Assembly: GCA_023383015.1 (NCBI GenBank)
Contig: JAHDXW010000004.1
Coordinates: forward strand, 1-64,000
DNA length: 64,000 nt
From: Paracoccaceae bacterium
Lineage (GTDB): Bacteria > Pseudomonadota > Alphaproteobacteria > Rhodobacterales > Rhodobacteraceae
Direction of reading: 5' to 3'
Positions within the stretch are counted from its first letter, which is position 1; each line of letters begins with the position of its first letter. Of the stretch, positions 6,362 to 28,347 are shown piece by piece. Under the pieces are notes generated by a model. It was not told the DNA's origin, ran no database searches, and saw only the letters and a list, made by a program, of their open reading frames with translations. The position numbers were made by a program, and so were the translations under genes.

Positions 6362-8689
<2,328 letters not shown>

Positions 8690-9648: not shown

Positions 9649-9662
9649 TTGATCTATGTCAA
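9649..9662. promoter_or_regulatory. Perfect FNR/NNR box upstream of the eNOR operon
   Basis: TTGATCTATGTCAA matches TTGAY-N4-RTCAA at every conserved base and extends to an 18-bp AATTGA-N6-TCAATT palindrome. It starts 23 bp after the previous stop codon and about 240 bp before the 59-aa membrane peptide that opens the operon. The remaining gap to 9901 shows no gene. Confidence 0.75.
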
Positions 9663-9901: not shown

Positions 9902-10081
9902 ATGAGCAACAAGGACACCACCGCCCGCCGGTCCGAGGGAGGACCGCCCGGAAGGGTTCCCATCATGCAGCAGGTGCTGGACAATCCGTTCCTGCTCCTG
10001 TTCCTCGGGATCACGATCCCGGCGGTGCTGTACACCGTCTGGGGCGTGATGGAGATCGCCTCGATCCCGGTCGCCGACTGA
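9902..10081 (+). CDS. 59-aa single-span membrane peptide opening the eNOR operon
   Basis: A short ORF easily missed: polar N-terminus of about 27 residues and one hydrophobic helix (about 29-48), ending Ile-Pro-Val-Ala-Asp. A ribosome binding site, GGGGAGGAG, lies eight bases before the ATG. The gap to the CuA subunit is only 25 bp, so it belongs to the operon. Many heme-copper complexes have a small membrane subunit of this size; I infer a third structural subunit of the NO reductase. Nothing suggests catalysis. Confidence 0.72.
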   Translation: MSNKDTTARRSEGGPPGRVPIMQQVLDNPFLLLFLGITIPAVLYTVWGVMEIASIPVAD

Positions 10082-10106: not shown

Positions 10107-10661
10107 ATGGCCATCACCCCTCCGTCAAACCGCCTCTGGTGGAAAGAACCGATCCACGCCATCGAACTCGGCTGGATCGTGATCGCCTTCCTCTGGGGGC
10201 TGTTCATGTTCTTCTTCATGATCGCCTGGCACTTCATCGGCGAGCAGAACCTCTCCTCGGAGACCTACAAGATCAGGCCCGAGCGCTATCAGGAGAAGGT
10301 CGAGGCCTTCGCCGACGAGTTCGCCGCCAAGGACGACCAAGGCAATCCGATCGAGGAGGACGGCGTGCCGGTCGTCCGACCGCCAGCGGGCGCGGACGTC
10401 TACATCCTCGCCCGGCTGTGGGAGTTCTGGCCGATCCTCGAGTTGAAGCGCAACGAGAGCTACCGCATCCACCTCTCATCGGCCGACTGGCAGCACGGCT
10501 TCTCGCTCCAGCCCACCAACATCAACATCTCGGTGCACCCGGGCTACGAGCACGTGATCACGCTGACCCCGACCGAGTCGGGTGAGTTCGGCATCATCTG
10601 CAATGAATTCTGCGGACTCGGCCATCACACGATGACCGGTCGCATCCGCGTCGTGGACTGA
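10107..10661 (+). CDS. CuA subunit of eNOR-type NO reductase
   Basis: A 184-aa subunit II with one membrane helix near 21-42 and a periplasmic cupredoxin domain. CuA ligands are complete: His130, Cys165, Glu167, Cys169, His173 and Met176. An acidic insert (about 60-90) separates the helix from the domain. It differs in sequence and layout from norS at 1875, which has two helices, so the two are not a recent duplication. The gap to the catalytic subunit is 12 bp. Confidence 0.85.
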   Translation: MAITPPSNRLWWKEPIHAIELGWIVIAFLWGLFMFFFMIAWHFIGEQNLSSETYKIRPERYQEKVEAFADEFAAKDDQGNPIEEDGVPVVRPPAGADVYILARLWEFWPILELKRNESYRIHLSSADWQHGFSLQPTNINISVHPGYEHVITLTPTESGEFGIICNEFCGLGHHTMTGRIRVVD

Positions 10662-10673
10662 GGGGGACACCGG

Positions 10674-12401
10674 ATGACCACCATCGACCCCGCCGCTGCC
10701 CCCGACTACGGGGTTTCGGCAAGCTACCGCACCTGCCGCTTCACCGGGCTCAGGATCGAGGCCAACGCCGAGATCCTGATCAAGGTCAACGCGGTCGCCG
10801 CGGTCCTCTTCCTCGCACTGGGCGGTCTCATGGGCCTGCTCGTGGCGCTGACCCGCTGGCCGGCGATTCAGCTTCTCGATGCCGAGTGGTTCTACCTGAT
10901 CCTCACCGGGCACGGCGCCAACGTCCTGCTGTTCTGGATCATCTTCTTCGAGATCGCGGTGCTCTACTTCGCGTCGGCGGTGATCCTCGGCGCGCGGCTG
11001 GCGACGCCGAAGATCGCCTGGCTCGCCTTCATCCTGATGGTCGTCGGCGCGGTGATGGCGAACTACGCCGTGCTGCGCGGCGACTCGACGGTGATGTTCA
11101 CCTCCTATCCGCCGATGATGGCCTCGCAGTGGTTCTACCTGTCGCTGATCATCTTCGCGGTGGGGGCGCTGCTTGCGGTCTTCGTGTTCTTCGGCACGCT
11201 GGTCGTGGCCAAGTCCGAGAACACCTATGACGGCTCGGTGCCGCTTGTCACTTTCGGGGCCATCACGGCGGCGATCATCGCCGTCTTCACCCTGGCCTCG
11301 GGCGCGATCATCCTCATCCCGACATGGCTGTGGTCGCTCGGGCTGATCTCGAACATCGACTCGCTGATGTACAAGGTGGTCTGGTGGGGGATGGGGCACT
11401 CCAGCCAGCAGATCAACGTCTCGGCCCATGTCGCGATCTGGTATGCGATCGGGGCCATGGTTGTGGGCGCCAAGCCGCTATCCGAGAAGGTCAGCCGCAC
11501 CGCCTTCCTGATGTACATCCTGTTCCTGCAGCTCGCCTCGGCCCACCACATCCTGGCCGAGCCCGGGATGTCCTCGACCTGGAAGATCGTCAACACCAGC
11601 TACATGATGTATCTTGCGGTGATGGGCTCGATGATCCACGGGCTGACGGTGCCCGGCTCGATCGAGGCGGCCCAGCGGCGCAATGGCTTCACCCGCGGTG
11701 CCTTCGAGTGGCTGACCAAGGCGCCCTGGGGCAACCCCGCCTTCTCGGGGATGTTCCTCAGCCTCGTCATGTTCGGCTTCATCGGCGGCATCTCCGGCGT
11801 GGTGCTCGGAACCGAGCAGCTGAACGTGCTGATGCACAACACCATCTACGTTCCCGGCCACTTCCACGGCACGGTCGTGGCGGGCACGACGCTGGCCTTC
11901 ATGGCGATGACCTACCTTGTGGTACCGCTGATCTTCCAGCGCGACATCGTCTGGCCGGGGCTGGCGAAATGGCAGCCGTTCCTGTTCGGGATCGGAGCCG
12001 GGGGCATCTCGCTCTTCATGATGGGTGCTGGCACGCTTGGCGTCTCGCGCCGGCACTGGGATCTCGCGCTGACCGACGCGGCGCACGCCTTCGAATATCC
12101 GGCCGCGGCCTATCTGATGATGGCCCTGAACGGTATCTTCGCGGTCATCGCGGCAGTCGGCGGCATCCTGTTCATCCTGATCGTCGTGCTCTCGATCCTG
12201 GGCGGCACGCGGCTGGACAGAGCCGGTGCCCGGCTGAACTTCCCGCTGCATGACCGCAGCCGCGAAGTGGCCGAGTACGGCAGCCACGGGACGCTCAAGC
12301 TGCCCGGCACGATCATCCTGGTGGGCATCTTCTTCGCCTGCTTCGTGCTCTACTACTTCGTGAACTGGAAGTACCTGTCGGAACTCTGGCTGTTCCGCTG
12401 A
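10674..12401 (+). CDS. Heme-copper catalytic subunit, eNOR-type NO reductase
   Basis: A 575-aa protein with about 13-14 membrane helices. Ligands: His80 and His398 for the low-spin heme, His396 for the active-site heme, and His242, His291 and His292 for the second metal. At the position of the cross-linked Tyr of oxygen reductases (His+4) lies Gln246, within Gly-His-Ser-Ser-Gln-Gln-Ile-Asn. As I recall the definitions, Gln at this site and an operon with a CuA subunit mark the eNOR family of NO reductases, proposed to be energy-conserving. NO to N2O would be the reaction. The neighbours (CtaB, SCO, small helix peptide) fit a heme-a/o-containing, CuA-containing complex. An ordinary oxygen reductase is unlikely without the Tyr. 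Confidence 0.82.
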   Translation: MTTIDPAAAPDYGVSASYRTCRFTGLRIEANAEILIKVNAVAAVLFLALGGLMGLLVALTRWPAIQLLDAEWFYLILTGHGANVLLFWIIFFEIAVLYFASAVILGARLATPKIAWLAFILMVVGAVMANYAVLRGDSTVMFTSYPPMMASQWFYLSLIIFAVGALLAVFVFFGTLVVAKSENTYDGSVPLVTFGAITAAIIAVFTLASGAIILIPTWLWSLGLISNIDSLMYKVVWWGMGHSSQQINVSAHVAIWYAIGAMVVGAKPLSEKVSRTAFLMYILFLQLASAHHILAEPGMSSTWKIVNTSYMMYLAVMGSMIHGLTVPGSIEAAQRRNGFTRGAFEWLTKAPWGNPAFSGMFLSLVMFGFIGGISGVVLGTEQLNVLMHNTIYVPGHFHGTVVAGTTLAFMAMTYLVVPLIFQRDIVWPGLAKWQPFLFGIGAGGISLFMMGAGTLGVSRRHWDLALTDAAHAFEYPAAAYLMMALNGIFAVIAAVGGILFILIVVLSILGGTRLDRAGARLNFPLHDRSREVAEYGSHGTLKLPGTIILVGIFFACFVLYYFVNWKYLSELWLFR

Positions 12402-12425
12402 TCCGTCAGGCAAGGGGTGACCGCG

Positions 12426-13310
12426 ATGCGCGACGTCCTGACCACGACCGTGTCGATCCTGAAGCTCCGGATCGGTTCCTTCGTCGCGCTCGCGGCCCTC
12501 GTCGGCATCGTCGCCGGGGGCGGCGCCATCGGCTGGGCCGAGGGCGCGGCCTTCACCCTCGCCGTGCTCGGAGCTTCGGGCGCGGCGGGGGCCTTCAACC
12601 AGTATTTCGAGCGCGAGACCGACCGGCAGATGGCCCGCACGCACACCCGTCCCTTCGCAAGCGGGCGGCTCAGGGCCGGGCCGGTCTGGCCCGCGACGTT
12701 CACCGCGCTGCTCGCGGTGTCGCTGCTGCTCGGCTGGGCGACGGGGGGCACCCTTGCCGCCCTCCTCGTTTTCGCCGGCGCGGCGACCTACGGGCTTGTC
12801 TACACGCTTCTGCTGAAGAAGCGGACGGTGTGGAACGTCGTGATCGGCGGCGCGGCGGGAAGCTTTGCGCTGCTGGCCGGGGCTGTCGCTGCGGCCCCGC
12901 CGACCGGCCCGGTGATCGGGCCGGTGCCGGTGCTGTTGGCGGTCGTCCTCTTCCTGTGGACCCCGCCGCATTTCTGGGCGCTCGCGGCGGTCCGCGGAGA
13001 GGACTACCGCCGGGCCGGGATTCCGATGCTTCCGGTGACCCATCCCGCCGATGTATGGGCGCCGGCGATCTTCTCGCATGTCGCGGTGCTCGTGCTGCTG
13101 TCGCTGGGGCCGCTCCTCTATGGCTACGGGGTCGTCTACGGCGCCTGCGCGGTGGTGGGCGGTGCCCTGTTCCTGCGCGCATCCTGGCGGCTCATGCGCG
13201 ATCCCGCGCGCGGTCATGCCATGGCGACCTTCCGCGCCTCGCTGGTGCAGTTTGCCCTTCTGGCGCTCGGTGTAATCGTCGACCGGGGGATGGCGGCATG
13301 GCTGGCATGA
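12426..13310 (+). CDS. ctaB: Protoheme IX farnesyltransferase (heme O synthase, CtaB)
   Basis: A UbiA-superfamily prenyltransferase of 294 aa and about eight helices that attaches farnesyl to heme b, giving heme O. The allylic-diphosphate motif Asn-Gln-Tyr-Phe-Glu-Arg-Glu-Thr-Asp followed by Met-Ala-Arg-Thr and Arg-Pro is present near 53-70, and Leu-Trp-Thr-Pro-Pro-His-Phe-Trp near 176. I use the ATG at 12426, eight bases behind AAGGGG, rather than a GTG at 12417. Its place right after the catalytic subunit suggests that this reductase carries a farnesylated heme (heme O, or heme A if a CtaA exists elsewhere; none is in the window). Confidence 0.92.
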   Translation: MRDVLTTTVSILKLRIGSFVALAALVGIVAGGGAIGWAEGAAFTLAVLGASGAAGAFNQYFERETDRQMARTHTRPFASGRLRAGPVWPATFTALLAVSLLLGWATGGTLAALLVFAGAATYGLVYTLLLKKRTVWNVVIGGAAGSFALLAGAVAAAPPTGPVIGPVPVLLAVVLFLWTPPHFWALAAVRGEDYRRAGIPMLPVTHPADVWAPAIFSHVAVLVLLSLGPLLYGYGVVYGACAVVGGALFLRASWRLMRDPARGHAMATFRASLVQFALLALGVIVDRGMAAWLA

Positions 13311-14122
13311 GACAGCTGGGGATGGCGCTTGCCCTCGCCGCCGGGCTTGCCCTGCCCGCGTCCGCCCAGGCACCCAAGCTGGATTCCGAGATCGCATTCG
13401 AGGAAAGCCAGGCCGCAATCGGCCGCCAGACGGGTGCGCATGTGCTCACCGACCATCGCGGCCGGCCGCTGGCTCTGGCCGACCTCCGCGGCCGGCCGCT
13501 CGTCGTGTCGCTGGTCTTCACGAGTTGCGCGACCGTCTGCCCCATCACCACCGACCATCTCCGCGACCTGATCCTCAAGGCACGCCGTGCGACCGGTGAC
13601 GGCTCGTTCGACATCCTCACCTTCGGCTTCGACGCCAGCGGCGACCGTCCGGCCCAGCTTGCCGCGTTTGCCGGCACGCACCGGCTGCTGGGCGTGGAGG
13701 GATGGCATGTGGCGAGCGCGGACGAGGCGACCACCGCCACCTTCCTGAGGGAACTCGGCTTCTCGTTTCGTGCCGCGGCGGGCGGCTTCGACCATGTGAC
13801 CCAGACGACGATCCTCGATGCGGACGGGCGCGTCCGCGCCCAGGTCTACGGGGAAAACTTCCCCCTGCCGATGCTCGTCGAGCCGCTCAAGGCGCTGGTC
13901 TTCGGCACCGCCACACGCTCGCTGGCGCCGACCGACCTGTGGGACCGCATCAATTTCCTCTGCACCGTTTACAATCCCCGGACGGGCGCGTACCGGTTCG
14001 ATTACTCGATCTTCTTCGGCATCTTCTTCGGCGGGCTGTCACTGGTGCTTACCGGCCTTGTGATCCTGCGGCTCTGGCTCCAGCGGCGTCGCGCCCTCCG
14101 CACGGCAAACGAGGCGACTTGA
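13298..14122 (+). CDS. SCO1/SenC-family copper chaperone with C-terminal anchor
   Basis: A 274-aa protein: signal peptide (about 1-24, ending Ala-Ser-Ala-Gln), thioredoxin fold with Cys77-x3-Cys81 and a later Gly-Phe-Asp-His, then an added tail with one membrane helix (about 234-258) and a basic end. The C-terminal anchor is unusual for SCO proteins, most of which are anchored at the N-terminus. It overlaps ctaB by 13 bp and the next gene by 1 bp. It presumably loads CuA of the upstream eNOR subunit. Confidence 0.85.
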   Translation: MAGMRQLGMALALAAGLALPASAQAPKLDSEIAFEESQAAIGRQTGAHVLTDHRGRPLALADLRGRPLVVSLVFTSCATVCPITTDHLRDLILKARRATGDGSFDILTFGFDASGDRPAQLAAFAGTHRLLGVEGWHVASADEATTATFLRELGFSFRAAAGGFDHVTQTTILDADGRVRAQVYGENFPLPMLVEPLKALVFGTATRSLAPTDLWDRINFLCTVYNPRTGAYRFDYSIFFGIFFGGLSLVLTGLVILRLWLQRRRALRTANEAT

Positions 14123-15708
14123 TGGCCTTGCTGCGTCCCGCGCTGCGGCGCGGATTCGACCGGATCGAGCGTCTCCTCGACCGCGCTTTCGGCCCCGACT
14201 GGAACCCACTCGCGCGACTGGGCCCGCTCGGCTGGTACCTTTTCTGGATCGTTGCCGTCACCGGCATCTATCTCTTCATCTTCTTCGACACGGGCGTGAT
14301 CGATGCCTATGCCTCGGTCGAGTGGCTGACCAATGACCACTGGTGGCATGCCGGCGTCGCCCGCAGCCTGCACCGCTACGCCTCGGACCTGATGGTGCTG
14401 GTGATGTTCACCCACCTCCTGCGCGAGTGGGCGATGGACCGCTACCGCGGGCGGCGCTGGTTCTCCTGGGTGACCGGGGTTCCAGTGATCTGGTTCGTCT
14501 ATCTGTCGGGAATCACCGGCTACTGGCTGGTGTGGGACCAGCTTGCCCAGTATGTCGCGGTGACGACGACCGAGCTGCTGGACACACTCGGTATCTTCGC
14601 CGAACCCATCGCACGGAACTTCCTCGCGCCGACGCTGCTGTCGGGCCGGTTCTTCACGCTGATGGTGTTCCTGCACATCGCCATCCCGCTGCTTCTGCTC
14701 CTGATGATGTGGATCCACATCCAGCGCATCACCGAGGCGCGCACGAACCCGCCTCGTGGCCTGGCGGTCGTGACCCTGGTGGCGCTGGTGGTGGTTTCGC
14801 TGGCGATCCCTGCCGAGTCGCAGGGGCCGGCCGACCTGAAAGGCATTCCCCAGTCGGTGGGAATCGACTGGTTCATCCTGCCGCTCTATCCGGTGATCGA
14901 GAGCGTCCCGTCCGGGGTGATCTGGTGGGGCGTGCTTGCCTTCACAGTCCTTCTGTCGGGGATGCCTTGGCTCCCGCGACGCCGTGAGGGCGGCGCTGCC
15001 CAGGTATTCCTCGACCATTGCAACGGCTGCTCGCGATGCGTGGCGGACTGCCCCTATGCGGCGATCACCCTCGTGCCCCGCTCGGATGGACTGCCGTTCA
15101 GCCACGAGGTCGTGGTGAACCCTGCCCGCTGCGTTGCATGCGGCATCTGCATGGGCGCCTGCCCATCCTCGACGCCGTTCCGGCGATCGGGCGACCTCGT
15201 GACCGGGATCGACCTGCCCGACCGCCCGCTCGCCCAGTTGCGCGCCGAAGTGATCGCGGCCGGCCAGGCCCTCACAGGCAAGGGGCGCGTCCTGACGCTC
15301 GCCTGCGGGCAAGGGGCAGCCGTTGGCTCCGCGCCCGGCCGGGTGGTCCTGCCCTGCGTCGCGATGGCGCCGCCGTCGCTGATCGACTTCATCATCAGCC
15401 GGGGCTTGGCCGACGGGGTGGCGGTTGCCGGATGTGCCGAGCGCGACTGCTTCAACCGCTTCGGCCATGCCTGGACGGAGGCCCGCTTTGGTCGCACTCG
15501 CGACCCCTATCTGCGCGCGCGCGTTCCCCGGGACCGCTTGCTGACGGTCTGGGCGGGCCCGTCCGAGACCGCACGGCTTGATGGCGAGATCGCGGGCTTC
15601 GCCGCACGGCTGGCGGACCTTCCGGGCTACGAGAACGTCCGCCCGCTCGACGAGGAGGAAGCGGCCGAGGCCGAGGCGGCAGCGCAACGGCGGGTGGCGG
15701 CGAAATGA
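14122..15708 (+). CDS. Cytochrome b / 2[4Fe-4S] ferredoxin / MvhD fusion protein
   Basis: A 528-aa three-part protein. Residues 30-280 are a cytochrome b like that of bc1/b6f: bis-His pairs His84/His98 and His185/His199, each 14 apart, plus Thr-Gly-Tyr-x3-Trp-Asp-Gln near the quinol site and a subunit-IV-like tail helix. Residues 296-350 hold two [4Fe-4S] motifs (Cys300, 303, 306, 310 and Cys337, 340, 343, 347). Residues 388-460 resemble the delta subunit of F420-non-reducing hydrogenase (MvhD), with Cys395, 412, 438 and 443, which in MvhD carry a [2Fe-2S] cluster. I infer quinol or quinone chemistry joined to a cytoplasmic Fe-S partner. It is embedded in the eNOR operon (overlaps of 1 and 4 bp). 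The domain calls are solid; the reaction is unknown. Confidence 0.8.
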   Translation: MALLRPALRRGFDRIERLLDRAFGPDWNPLARLGPLGWYLFWIVAVTGIYLFIFFDTGVIDAYASVEWLTNDHWWHAGVARSLHRYASDLMVLVMFTHLLREWAMDRYRGRRWFSWVTGVPVIWFVYLSGITGYWLVWDQLAQYVAVTTTELLDTLGIFAEPIARNFLAPTLLSGRFFTLMVFLHIAIPLLLLLMMWIHIQRITEARTNPPRGLAVVTLVALVVVSLAIPAESQGPADLKGIPQSVGIDWFILPLYPVIESVPSGVIWWGVLAFTVLLSGMPWLPRRREGGAAQVFLDHCNGCSRCVADCPYAAITLVPRSDGLPFSHEVVVNPARCVACGICMGACPSSTPFRRSGDLVTGIDLPDRPLAQLRAEVIAAGQALTGKGRVLTLACGQGAAVGSAPGRVVLPCVAMAPPSLIDFIISRGLADGVAVAGCAERDCFNRFGHAWTEARFGRTRDPYLRARVPRDRLLTVWAGPSETARLDGEIAGFAARLADLPGYENVRPLDEEEAAEAEAAAQRRVAAK

Positions 15709-16226
15709 CGGAAGCGGTACCCTTCTGGCAAGGGCGCATCCGGCATCTGGCGCTCGGTGGCGCGCTGACGCTGGCGCTGGGTGCAGCCACAGCAGTGCTG
15801 TCGGCCCGGCCTGCCTGGCAGAGCGTGGCTCCAGGCGACGGGCTGCTGCGCCTCAGCTTCACCCATTCCGGTGCCCGGGTCTGCCGCGACCGCACGCCCG
15901 AGGAGCTGGCCGCCCTGCCCCGCAACATGCGCACCGCCCAGCTGTGCGAGCGTGCCCGCAGCGCGGTGCGGGTGGAGCTTGACATTGACGGCGTCGCGGT
16001 CTTCTCCGACGACGTCTCCCCTAGTGGGCTGGCTGACAGCGGGCCATCACGGGTATACCAGCGCTTCGAGCTTGCGGCCGGGGCACACCGGATCACGCTT
16101 CGTATGCGCGACGATCCTGCGGCCGACGATTTCACCCAGCGCGCCGAATTCGATGTCGTCCTCGATCCTGGGAAGAGCATCGCCGTGGACTTCGACGCCA
16201 CGACCGGTCGCTTCTTCATCCACTGA
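15705..16226 (+). CDS. Unknown membrane-anchored periplasmic protein of the eNOR operon
   Basis: A 173-aa protein with one N-terminal helix (about 13-33) and an outward domain rich in beta structure. Two cysteines (about 59 and 81) flank an Arg-Thr-Pro-Glu-Glu-Leu-Ala-x-Leu-Pro-x-Asn-Met-Arg motif. ATGA overlap with the fusion protein ties it to that gene. I do not recognise a named family. The coupling suggests a structural partner of the cytochrome b/ferredoxin protein. Confidence 0.7.
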   Translation: MTEAVPFWQGRIRHLALGGALTLALGAATAVLSARPAWQSVAPGDGLLRLSFTHSGARVCRDRTPEELAALPRNMRTAQLCERARSAVRVELDIDGVAVFSDDVSPSGLADSGPSRVYQRFELAAGAHRITLRMRDDPAADDFTQRAEFDVVLDPGKSIAVDFDATTGRFFIH

Positions 16227-16242: not shown

Positions 16243-16647
16243 ATGGCCCCGATCGCGTGGAAACCCGAGTACAGCGTCGGCGATCCCGCCGTGGATCACG
16301 AGCACCGCGAACTGGTGGACCTCGTCAACTCCGCTGCCGCGGCGATTCTCGACGGCCGCCCCGACGCCGACATCGACCGCGGGCTCGGCGATCTCTATCG
16401 CGCGATCTCGGCCCATTTCGCGCATGAGGAGGTCCACATGCGCAAGGCAATCTACGATCAGTACTCCGTGCACAAGGCTGACCACGAGCGCCTTCTGGAC
16501 GCGCTGCGCGACATCATGGATGGTGCGGACCGATCCGCGGGCAGCACCGCCGAGCGCCTCACCGCAGCACTCGAGGCATGGTTCACGGATCACTTCCGCT
16601 CCCATGATGCCAGGCTGCACCGTCGGCTCGGCCCGCACGATCACTGA
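16243..16647 (+). CDS. Bacteriohemerythrin-like di-iron protein
   Basis: A 134-aa four-helix protein with the hemerythrin ligand set: Val-Asp-His-Glu-His near 18-22, His-Phe-Ala-His-Glu-Glu near 58-63, His-Lys-Ala-Asp-His near 77-81 and His-Phe-Arg-Ser-His-Asp near 115-120. A di-iron centre that binds O2 or NO is expected. It is cytoplasmic, 16 bp behind the previous gene with an AGGGAG site, so it ends the eNOR operon. A likely job is binding NO or oxygen near the reductase. Confidence 0.9.
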   Translation: MAPIAWKPEYSVGDPAVDHEHRELVDLVNSAAAAILDGRPDADIDRGLGDLYRAISAHFAHEEVHMRKAIYDQYSVHKADHERLLDALRDIMDGADRSAGSTAERLTAALEAWFTDHFRSHDARLHRRLGPHDH

Positions 16648-16713: not shown

Positions 16714-16727
16714 TTGATAATTATCAA
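16714..16727. promoter_or_regulatory. Perfect FNR/NNR box upstream of the cytochrome c gene
   Basis: TTGATAATTATCAA is a fully symmetric FNR/DNR/NNR site. Its centre lies about 96 bp before the GTG start of the cytochrome c gene, a normal distance for activation when a leader is present. Confidence 0.8.
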
Positions 16728-16816: not shown

Positions 16817-17164
16817 GTGAGACATTCGCCCGACCACATCACCGTCGCGCACCTCCGGCAGCACAAGGGACTGCGGAGCATGCTTGTTGCCGCCATGCTG
16901 CTTGCCATGCCCGGTGCAGCCACGGCTGCCGACGTAGAGCGGGGGGCAGCGCTCGCCGAGCAATGGTGCAACGCCTGCCATTCCGTCGGTCGTGAGCCGC
17001 CGCGGCAGTTCGATGCCGGACCGATGTTCGCCGATCTCGCGAAGCAGGACGAGGCCTATCTCGAGACGGCGATCAGGCGCCCGCATGATTTCATGCCGGA
17101 ATTCCCGCGTCTCGATGATACCGATCTGGCCGACCTCGTCGCCTACATCAGGACTGTCGAGTAA
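16817..17164 (+). CDS. Small periplasmic cytochrome c (monoheme)
   Basis: A 115-aa precursor: signal peptide of about 38 residues ending Ala-Ala-Thr-Ala, and a small class I cytochrome domain with Cys51-x2-Cys54-His55. The likely sixth ligand is the Met in His-Asp-Phe-Met-Pro. I choose GTG at 16817 because AGAGGAGA lies eight bases upstream; the next Met is inside the signal peptide and the preceding in-frame ATG overlaps the promoter region. A perfect FNR/NNR box precedes it. By place and size it is a candidate electron donor to NirS or to the CuA subunits of the two NO reductases. It converges, with a 2-bp gap, on the Mo hydroxylase operon. Confidence 0.85.
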   Translation: MRHSPDHITVAHLRQHKGLRSMLVAAMLLAMPGAATAADVERGAALAEQWCNACHSVGREPPRQFDAGPMFADLAKQDEAYLETAIRRPHDFMPEFPRLDDTDLADLVAYIRTVE

Positions 17165-28333: not shown

Positions 28334-28347
28334 TTGACATGGATCAA
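28334..28347. promoter_or_regulatory. FNR/NNR box upstream of the nnrS operon
   Basis: TTGACATGGATCAA fits TTGAY-N4-RTCAA at all conserved bases. The centre is 100 bp before the binding-protein start. It overlaps the last codons of hypX, so it sits at the 3' end of the hydrogenase run and separates the two transcription units. Confidence 0.75.

Follow-up and report, generated by a model that had tools for sequence, protein, structure and literature searches.

A cytochrome b–iron-sulfur–FlpD fusion protein encoded with the Gln-type nitric oxide reductase eNOR in Proteobacteria

What is a quinone-type cytochrome with cytoplasmic iron-sulfur (Fe-S) domains doing in an operon for nitric oxide (NO) reduction? 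The question is raised by a 64,000-nucleotide stretch of DNA from a Paracoccaceae bacterium (assembly GCA_023383015.1, contig JAHDXW010000004.1, positions 1 to 64,000), hereafter the window, in which one gene joins a cytochrome b, a two-cluster ferredoxin and a FlpD/MvhD-like domain inside the operon of the NO reductase eNOR. This reductase produces the greenhouse gas N2O; it is widespread but has been little studied, and annotations often mistake it for an oxygen reductase. Judged from its residues, the fusion is a cytochrome b of the bc1/b6 type in which an Fe-S/FlpD relay takes the place of the Qi side, and its distribution follows that of eNOR.

The fusion architecture is not a chance artefact. 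Its conservation across Proteobacteria excludes chance: GTDB genome contigs yield at least 564 relatives. Viral contigs, scanned at the protein level with the Fe-S/FlpD half, yield none. Three domains lie above the curated Pfam cut-offs, namely Cytochrome_B (residues 33-204, E 4e-17), Fer4_7 (residues 299-349, E 9e-10) and the FlpD/MvhD family PF02662 (residues 409-500, 32.7 bits against a cut-off of 22.3). An alignment of 52 homologues shows strict conservation of the putative ligands. The heme His pairs H84/H98 and H185/H199, each 14 residues apart, are kept in 52/52 sequences, as are the eight ferredoxin Cys, in agreement with the first-pass annotation, which had noted both the bis-His spacing and two [4Fe-4S] motifs in the single chain. 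From such ligand residues we infer the cofactors, hemes and Fe-S clusters alike. The MvhD-like Cys set proposed at the same time is confirmed with one refinement: C395 and C412 are found in 52/52 homologues, C438 and C443 in 51/52, but the PF02662 match spans profile positions 32-122 of 123, so that the N-terminal part of the domain is missing and C395 is the single Cys upstream of the match, in the region of the missing part. The cytochrome b assignment is correct, although the membrane part is larger than originally described and includes helices E and F with the Qo-motif region. A profile of the 52 homologues matches cytochrome b6 (E 4e-26) and, across helices A-F, bc1 cytochrome b; among PDB sequences it also reaches MvhD of the methanogen hydrogenase complex (5odc_D, E 4.9e-10) and the chain 9sw2_D (E 2.5e-10). 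The AlphaFold model has a predicted local distance difference test (pLDDT) score of 86.9 and a predicted template modelling score of 0.86, and its best PDB folds are bc1 cytochromes b. The best NCBIfam matches of the membrane part are ExtP and ExtQ, cytochromes b of a selenite/tellurite-reduction operon, with values far below the cut-offs (ExtP, NF040969, 89 bits against 290; ExtQ, 31 bits against 150); in contrast to the fusion, these are two separate proteins devoid of an Fe-S/FlpD extension.

Likeness to the bc1/b6f cytochromes b covers helices A-F, the positions and spacing of the heme His, all four of which coincide when the fusion is aligned with the bc1 cytochrome b from this genome, and the PEWY region, whose homology is also recovered by a separate search using that segment alone; a b6-like WDQ segment is present as well. 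The differences concern the quinone sites and the C-terminal half. The Qo PEWY motif is replaced by (I/L)DW(F/Y), with D249 and W250 found in 52/52 homologues. The Qi His position is occupied by Thr or Ser, the segment with the Lys-Asp pair is deleted, and the cytoplasmic Fe-S/FlpD module stands in place of helices G-H. The alignment thus shows one predicted Qo-type quinone site near the periplasmic face and no canonical Qi site. Six transmembrane helices are predicted, and under positive-inside topology the chain leaves the membrane after helix F on the positively charged, cytoplasmic side, before entering the Fe-S region. By this topology, the fusion is a six-helix transmembrane wire. Because of the aligned heme His, the Qo motif, the cytoplasmic exit and the Cys sets, the putative order of centres runs from a Qo-type quinone site through heme bL and heme bH to two [4Fe-4S] and a candidate [2Fe-2S]. 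The early suggestion of a quinone-reactive module with cytoplasmic Fe-S centres is well matched by this arrangement, as far as ligands and topology can tell. No Rieske protein is found among the identified genes of the window operon, and none was recognized by eye among the conserved neighbours. Two tandem fusion genes occur in some eNOR operons (L040, 7581-10997; L051, L060 and L066; genomes G488, G511, G425 and G638); in the aligned pairs of L040, L051 and L060, neither copy has lost the heme His or the ferredoxin Cys. Such tandem copies would be in keeping with a heterodimer, formed by a protein that is otherwise a homodimer.

How closely is the fusion tied to eNOR? In the order of the window genome it has six carriers among 295 genomes. 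In a phylum-wide sample of 398 Proteobacterial genomes, where near full-length fusions were counted and eNOR subunit I was found by an independent search, the fusion occurs in 34 genomes, eNOR in 30 and both in 29 (Fisher p = 8e-38). The sole eNOR genome without the fusion (G362) has a contig that ends ∼50 bases past the SCO match, at the expected fusion start (L155). Five genomes carry the fusion without eNOR; completeness is 69-82% in four of them, the fifth (G434, at 96%) has its fusion on a 5.3-kb contig, and in several of the five SCO or CyoE lies at a contig edge. Gene order gives the same picture in the best 80 of the at least 564 relatives, all Proteobacteria by title. SCO lies directly upstream of the fusion, and a gene for a 173-aa anchored protein directly downstream, in 79 of these 80 loci each; eNOR subunit I is present in 71, the other nine having the fusion ≤1.9 kb from the contig start, and a bacteriohemerythrin is nearby in 72. 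The HxxQQ motif is found in all 70 eNOR subunit I homologues in which it is readable. To the question, left by the first-pass annotation, of whether the fusion always travels with the Gln-type reductase, the answer is therefore positive (29 of 30 eNOR genomes); of the doubt raised with it, that the fusion might prove common and unlinked to NO reductase genes, the first half is borne out and the second is not, since the fusion is linked to eNOR.

Physical linkage is not the whole explanation. In family f47 and genome G343, the fusion and the 173-aa gene are often neighbours, several times with a cytochrome cd1-type nirS next to them, and the genome has the eNOR genes for subunits II and I, SCO and sometimes CyoE at another place. 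As these unlinked cases keep both partners, co-occurrence of fusion and eNOR is independent of linkage, and as the pair stays together away from eNOR, it behaves as a unit of its own. A comparison of pairwise distances gives a correlation with eNOR subunit I of r = 0.85 for the fusion (n=88 genomes), 0.66 for CyoE, 0.59 for SCO and 0.21 and 0.10 for the NirS controls; the higher value of the fusion over SCO and CyoE should not be over-read, because longer proteins give less noisy distances. Travel of the fusion with nirS instead of eNOR was considered and rejected, given nirS-type genes in 17 of the 80 loci and the weak distance correlation. Collectively, the fusion is very probably dedicated to eNOR in Proteobacteria.

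The surrounding genes are compiled in Table 1. The operon is called an eNOR operon because of HSSQQ in subunit I and the CuA motif in subunit II, and the context named by the first-pass annotation is right. In PMC8756737, Gln replacing the catalytic Tyr of subunit I is the stated mark of eNOR, and the activity of eNOR as an NO reductase goes back to literature cited in PMC8879329; for the window operon, this activity is a prediction from motifs. Two earlier papers, PMC6431628 and PMC8879329, depict the cluster with its SCO gene as the ‘ba3-a1’ operon of Proteobacteria; a Tyr-lacking Gln-type subunit I, a CuA subunit II and SCO are noted in these and in PMC8756737. No description of the cytochrome b-Fe-S-FlpD protein is found in the searchable literature, a coverage that leaves out the primary eNOR paper (PNAS 2024, e2316422121). 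The last base of the SCO stop codon is also the first of the fusion ATG (TGATG at 14120-14124), and at 15705-15708 the stop codon of the fusion overlaps the start codon of the next gene (ATGA). By these overlaps, which the first-pass annotation had pointed out, the fusion gene is translationally coupled on both sides. The whole block, from subunit II to the hemerythrin, is conserved in the five other carriers of the order and on a Defluviimonas plasmid, and the nearest relatives of the locus belong to Rhodobacteraceae metagenome-assembled genomes, Roseovarius and Defluviimonas. Culturable carriers include Litoreibacter arenae (L069), Roseovarius amoyensis (L067) and Meinhardsimonia xiamenensis (L082). 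The plasmid, of 165 kb, carries the complete block including the fusion (NZ_CP156080.1, L002, 10774-17520), which therefore can move as a unit. Neither Pfam nor NCBIfam has a match for the 59-aa open reading frame (ORF) at the head of the operon; 17 related loci and the Defluviimonas plasmid have a comparable small ORF ahead of the subunit II gene, in the 17 loci always on the same strand.

Table 1. Features of the eNOR operon and of the fusion gene in the window
Feature	Coordinates	Strand	Remarks
FNR/NNR-type palindrome	9649..9662	+	TTGATCTATGTCAA, perfect; before the operon; candidate anaerobic/NO-responsive control site
59-aa single-helix ORF	9902..10081	+	resembles small subunit IIa of B-type heme-copper enzymes
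eNOR subunit II, cupredoxin	10107..10661	+	CuA motif CNEFCGLGHHTM; CoxB/NosZ CuA-domain matches
eNOR subunit I, Gln-type heme-copper NO reductase	10674..12401	+	COX1 E 1.7e-60; HSSQQ replaces HPEVY
Heme o synthase CyoE/CtaB	12417..13310	+	TIGR01473, 227 bits against a cut-off of 210
SCO family copper chaperone/thioredoxin-like protein	13298..14122	+	SCO1-SenC E 3.8e-11; C-terminal membrane anchor
Fusion protein	14122..15708	+	528 aa; cytochrome b helices A-F, two [4Fe-4S], FlpD/MvhD-like domain
Cytochrome b membrane part	14224..14973	+	H84/H98, H185/H199; Qo-type motif IDWF at residues 248-251
Two-cluster ferredoxin segment	15016..15168	+	Cys 300/303/306/310 and 337/340/343/347; Fer4_7
FlpD/MvhD-like domain	15289..15621	+	Cys 395/412/438/443, candidate [2Fe-2S] site; PF02662
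173-aa anchored protein	15705..16226	+	one N-terminal helix, periplasmic beta-sandwich; no known family
Bacteriohemerythrin	16243..16647	+	TIGR02481, 87.8 bits; closes the block in most copies

The constant companion of the fusion, described from the start as an anchored protein of no recognizable family, keeps that status. The window copy has no Pfam or NCBIfam match, and an alignment of the family gives only scattered weak Pfam matches of single members. Its model, predicted at a pLDDT of 94.8, shows one helix and a beta-sandwich; searches of PDB sequences and PDB folds return distant beta-sandwich matches, e.g. HGSNAT, and no functional lead. Two Cys (60 and 81) are conserved and both are lost in one lineage (L040 and L060), and because they are lost together a disulfide would explain them better than a cofactor site.

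What could such a pair contribute to NO reduction? Known systems offer two precedents. NosR sits in the membrane, has two [4Fe-4S] sites on the cytoplasmic side and is encoded next to an N-oxide reductase that depends on copper; it is needed in vivo for N2O reductase activity, apparently not for copper-centre assembly, and may be an electron donor (PMC7660919). CcoG, a cupric reductase in cbb3 oxidase assembly, has two [4Fe-4S] and an Ig-like domain (PMC7558416). As both precedents show, membrane Fe-S proteins can work for a neighbouring copper-dependent reductase. The fusion is likewise membrane-bound, with two predicted cytoplasmic [4Fe-4S] sites, and adjoins N-oxide reductase genes; it differs from NosR by its heme-bearing cytochrome b core, and neither the fusion nor the 173-aa partner has a Pfam match to an FMN-binding (flavin mononucleotide) family, a covalent-FMN periplasmic domain being a trait of NosR. 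It is tempting to propose, tentatively and with conviction falling a little short of even, that in Proteobacteria the fusion and the 173-aa protein make up a redox accessory reserved for eNOR, a NosR-like wire keeping the enzyme reduced or reactivated. The FlpD-like end would dock a soluble cytoplasmic electron carrier, and electrons would leave the Fe-S sites for heme bH, then heme bL, and get to the periplasmic face or to the quinone site, from where they would hold eNOR reduced, or reactivate it, in NO turnover; the anchored beta-sandwich protein may dock the wire to eNOR subunit II. By analogy, this role would resemble that of NosR, and both the direction of electron flow and the immediate acceptor are what we infer. 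Electron supply is favoured because the unit separates from SCO, not from eNOR, and because the invariant quinone-site motif is kept. The FNR/NNR-type site before the operon also counts in favour of the proposal.

Several observations weigh against this proposal. No conserved gene for a cytoplasmic donor is found in the fusion neighbourhoods. Beyond Proteobacteria, eNOR occurs in Chloroflexota, relatives of Rhodothermus and Halobacteria, among others. In the loci covered there, those on Thermus and Thermomicrobium plasmids, eNOR has no fusion gene nearby, which indicates that eNOR chemistry as such does not depend on the fusion. Finally, 26 of 28 genomes with the fusion also have cytochrome c1 of the bc1 complex, and the remaining two are small and incomplete. 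As nearly all carriers have c1, eNOR is in principle feedable by bc1 and cytochrome c, and the fusion is not required for the basic route from quinol to cytochrome c. For the same reason, a fusion acting as a replacement of bc1 was rejected.

The main rival is an assembly function, in which the fusion and the beta-sandwich protein, in the manner of CcoG, would send cytoplasmic electrons outward for building the copper sites of eNOR, with Cu(II), SCO or the CuA thiols as targets of reduction. The near-constant position of SCO directly upstream and the presence of CyoE in the same operon fit well, as does the absence of nearby SCO from the very Thermus and Thermomicrobium loci that lack the fusion. 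CcoG itself has the same number of [4Fe-4S] sites and an operon context with a heme-copper oxidase, its Ig-like periplasmic domain finding an echo in the beta-sandwich encoded here by a separate gene. However, in family f47 the pair often lies apart from SCO and eNOR, in several genomes with nirS, which shows that SCO is no fixed companion of the unit; an invariant Qo-type motif and two b-heme sites, foreign to CcoG, exceed the needs of a copper reductase; and neither the fusion nor its partner has a Pfam match to the CcoG-type architecture, Ig-like C-terminal domain included. Assembly is therefore regarded as rather unlikely, if worth serious thought. A Qo-type site combined with a cytoplasmic Fe-S relay would suit a quinone oxidoreductase that exchanges electrons between a cytoplasmic ferredoxin or flavoprotein and the quinone pool, as a respiratory side entry merely co-regulated with denitrification; adjacency of the pair to nirS, not eNOR, in some genomes points the same way. 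Such a role is improbable in view of the nearly one-to-one co-occurrence with eNOR, unlinked cases included, and of the weak distance correlation with NirS.

Two further possibilities deal with the Fe-S end of the chain. The Qo motif may belong to quinone-based bifurcation with an iron-sulfur exit, where quinol oxidized at the Qo site would split its electrons. One would be drawn through CuA by the NO reductase, whose potential is very high; the other would travel over bL and then bH into the cytoplasmic [4Fe-4S]/[2Fe-2S] centres as low-potential power, not to a Qi quinone. This would fit the retained Qo motif, the replacement of Qi by an Fe-S relay and the near-obligate high-potential acceptor, and is nevertheless given only a slim chance. 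The methanogen-style hub evoked by the first-pass annotation, where MvhD serves a bifurcating enzyme of the heterodisulfide reductase type, has next to none. The C-terminal domain is homologous to FlpD/MvhD, and the Cys of its C-terminal half align with MvhD; unlike MvhD, it lacks the N-terminal part and is joined to a cytochrome b. The best local match to HdrA in the genome reaches 29 bits against a cut-off of 1100, in a search that did not extend to hydrogenase genes; there is no second FlpD protein in the genome and no Hdr-like gene among the conserved neighbours.

Regulatory signals and neighbouring genes complete the description of the locus. Besides the palindrome before the operon, a second perfect FNR/NNR-type palindrome is located at 16714-16727 and directly precedes a gene for a small CxxCH cytochrome c (16880-17164), a candidate periplasmic donor. 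Other perfect TTGAY-N4-RTCAA palindromes lie at 28334, 37089 and 44261, and matches with ≤1 mismatch amount to 11 in the window against 1.07 expected, suggesting that further genes of the window may be under FNR/NNR control. Upstream of the operon, on the same strand, 6941-8689 encodes a nirS-like cytochrome cd1-type protein with a c heme and a d1 domain (NirS, NirN or NirF). Judged by eye, neighbourhoods in relatives include Crp/Fnr-type regulators, NirS and other denitrification-like genes. In the lineages with tandem fusions, the 173-aa gene is followed by a gene for a divergent ∼455-aa protein resembling heme-copper subunit I (L066, 7126-8481, minus strand; L060, 466-1839, minus strand; L040, 11730-12869, plus strand), beside a CtaA-like gene. 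It has GGHVLQF and AHYHS motifs, a weak COX1 match and no NCBIfam match, and is possibly an undescribed heme-copper relative. A small conserved ORF beside the 173-aa gene (L038, 10513-10899, and 18 further loci in several families), with no Pfam match, is read on the opposite strand and may be the shadow of a real small membrane gene.

For Proteobacteria, these data mean that eNOR is almost never alone: it comes with the cytochrome b-Fe-S-FlpD protein and the small anchored protein. If these two are an electron donor or assembly parts, heterologous work on eNOR that omits both could fail or give misleading results, and the two genes would be a specific marker for eNOR-type NO reduction. If it is true that the Qo site couples to a cytoplasmic Fe-S chain, the cytochrome b machinery would be arranged here in a new way, and the fusion would offer a testable link between quinone chemistry and low-potential clusters.

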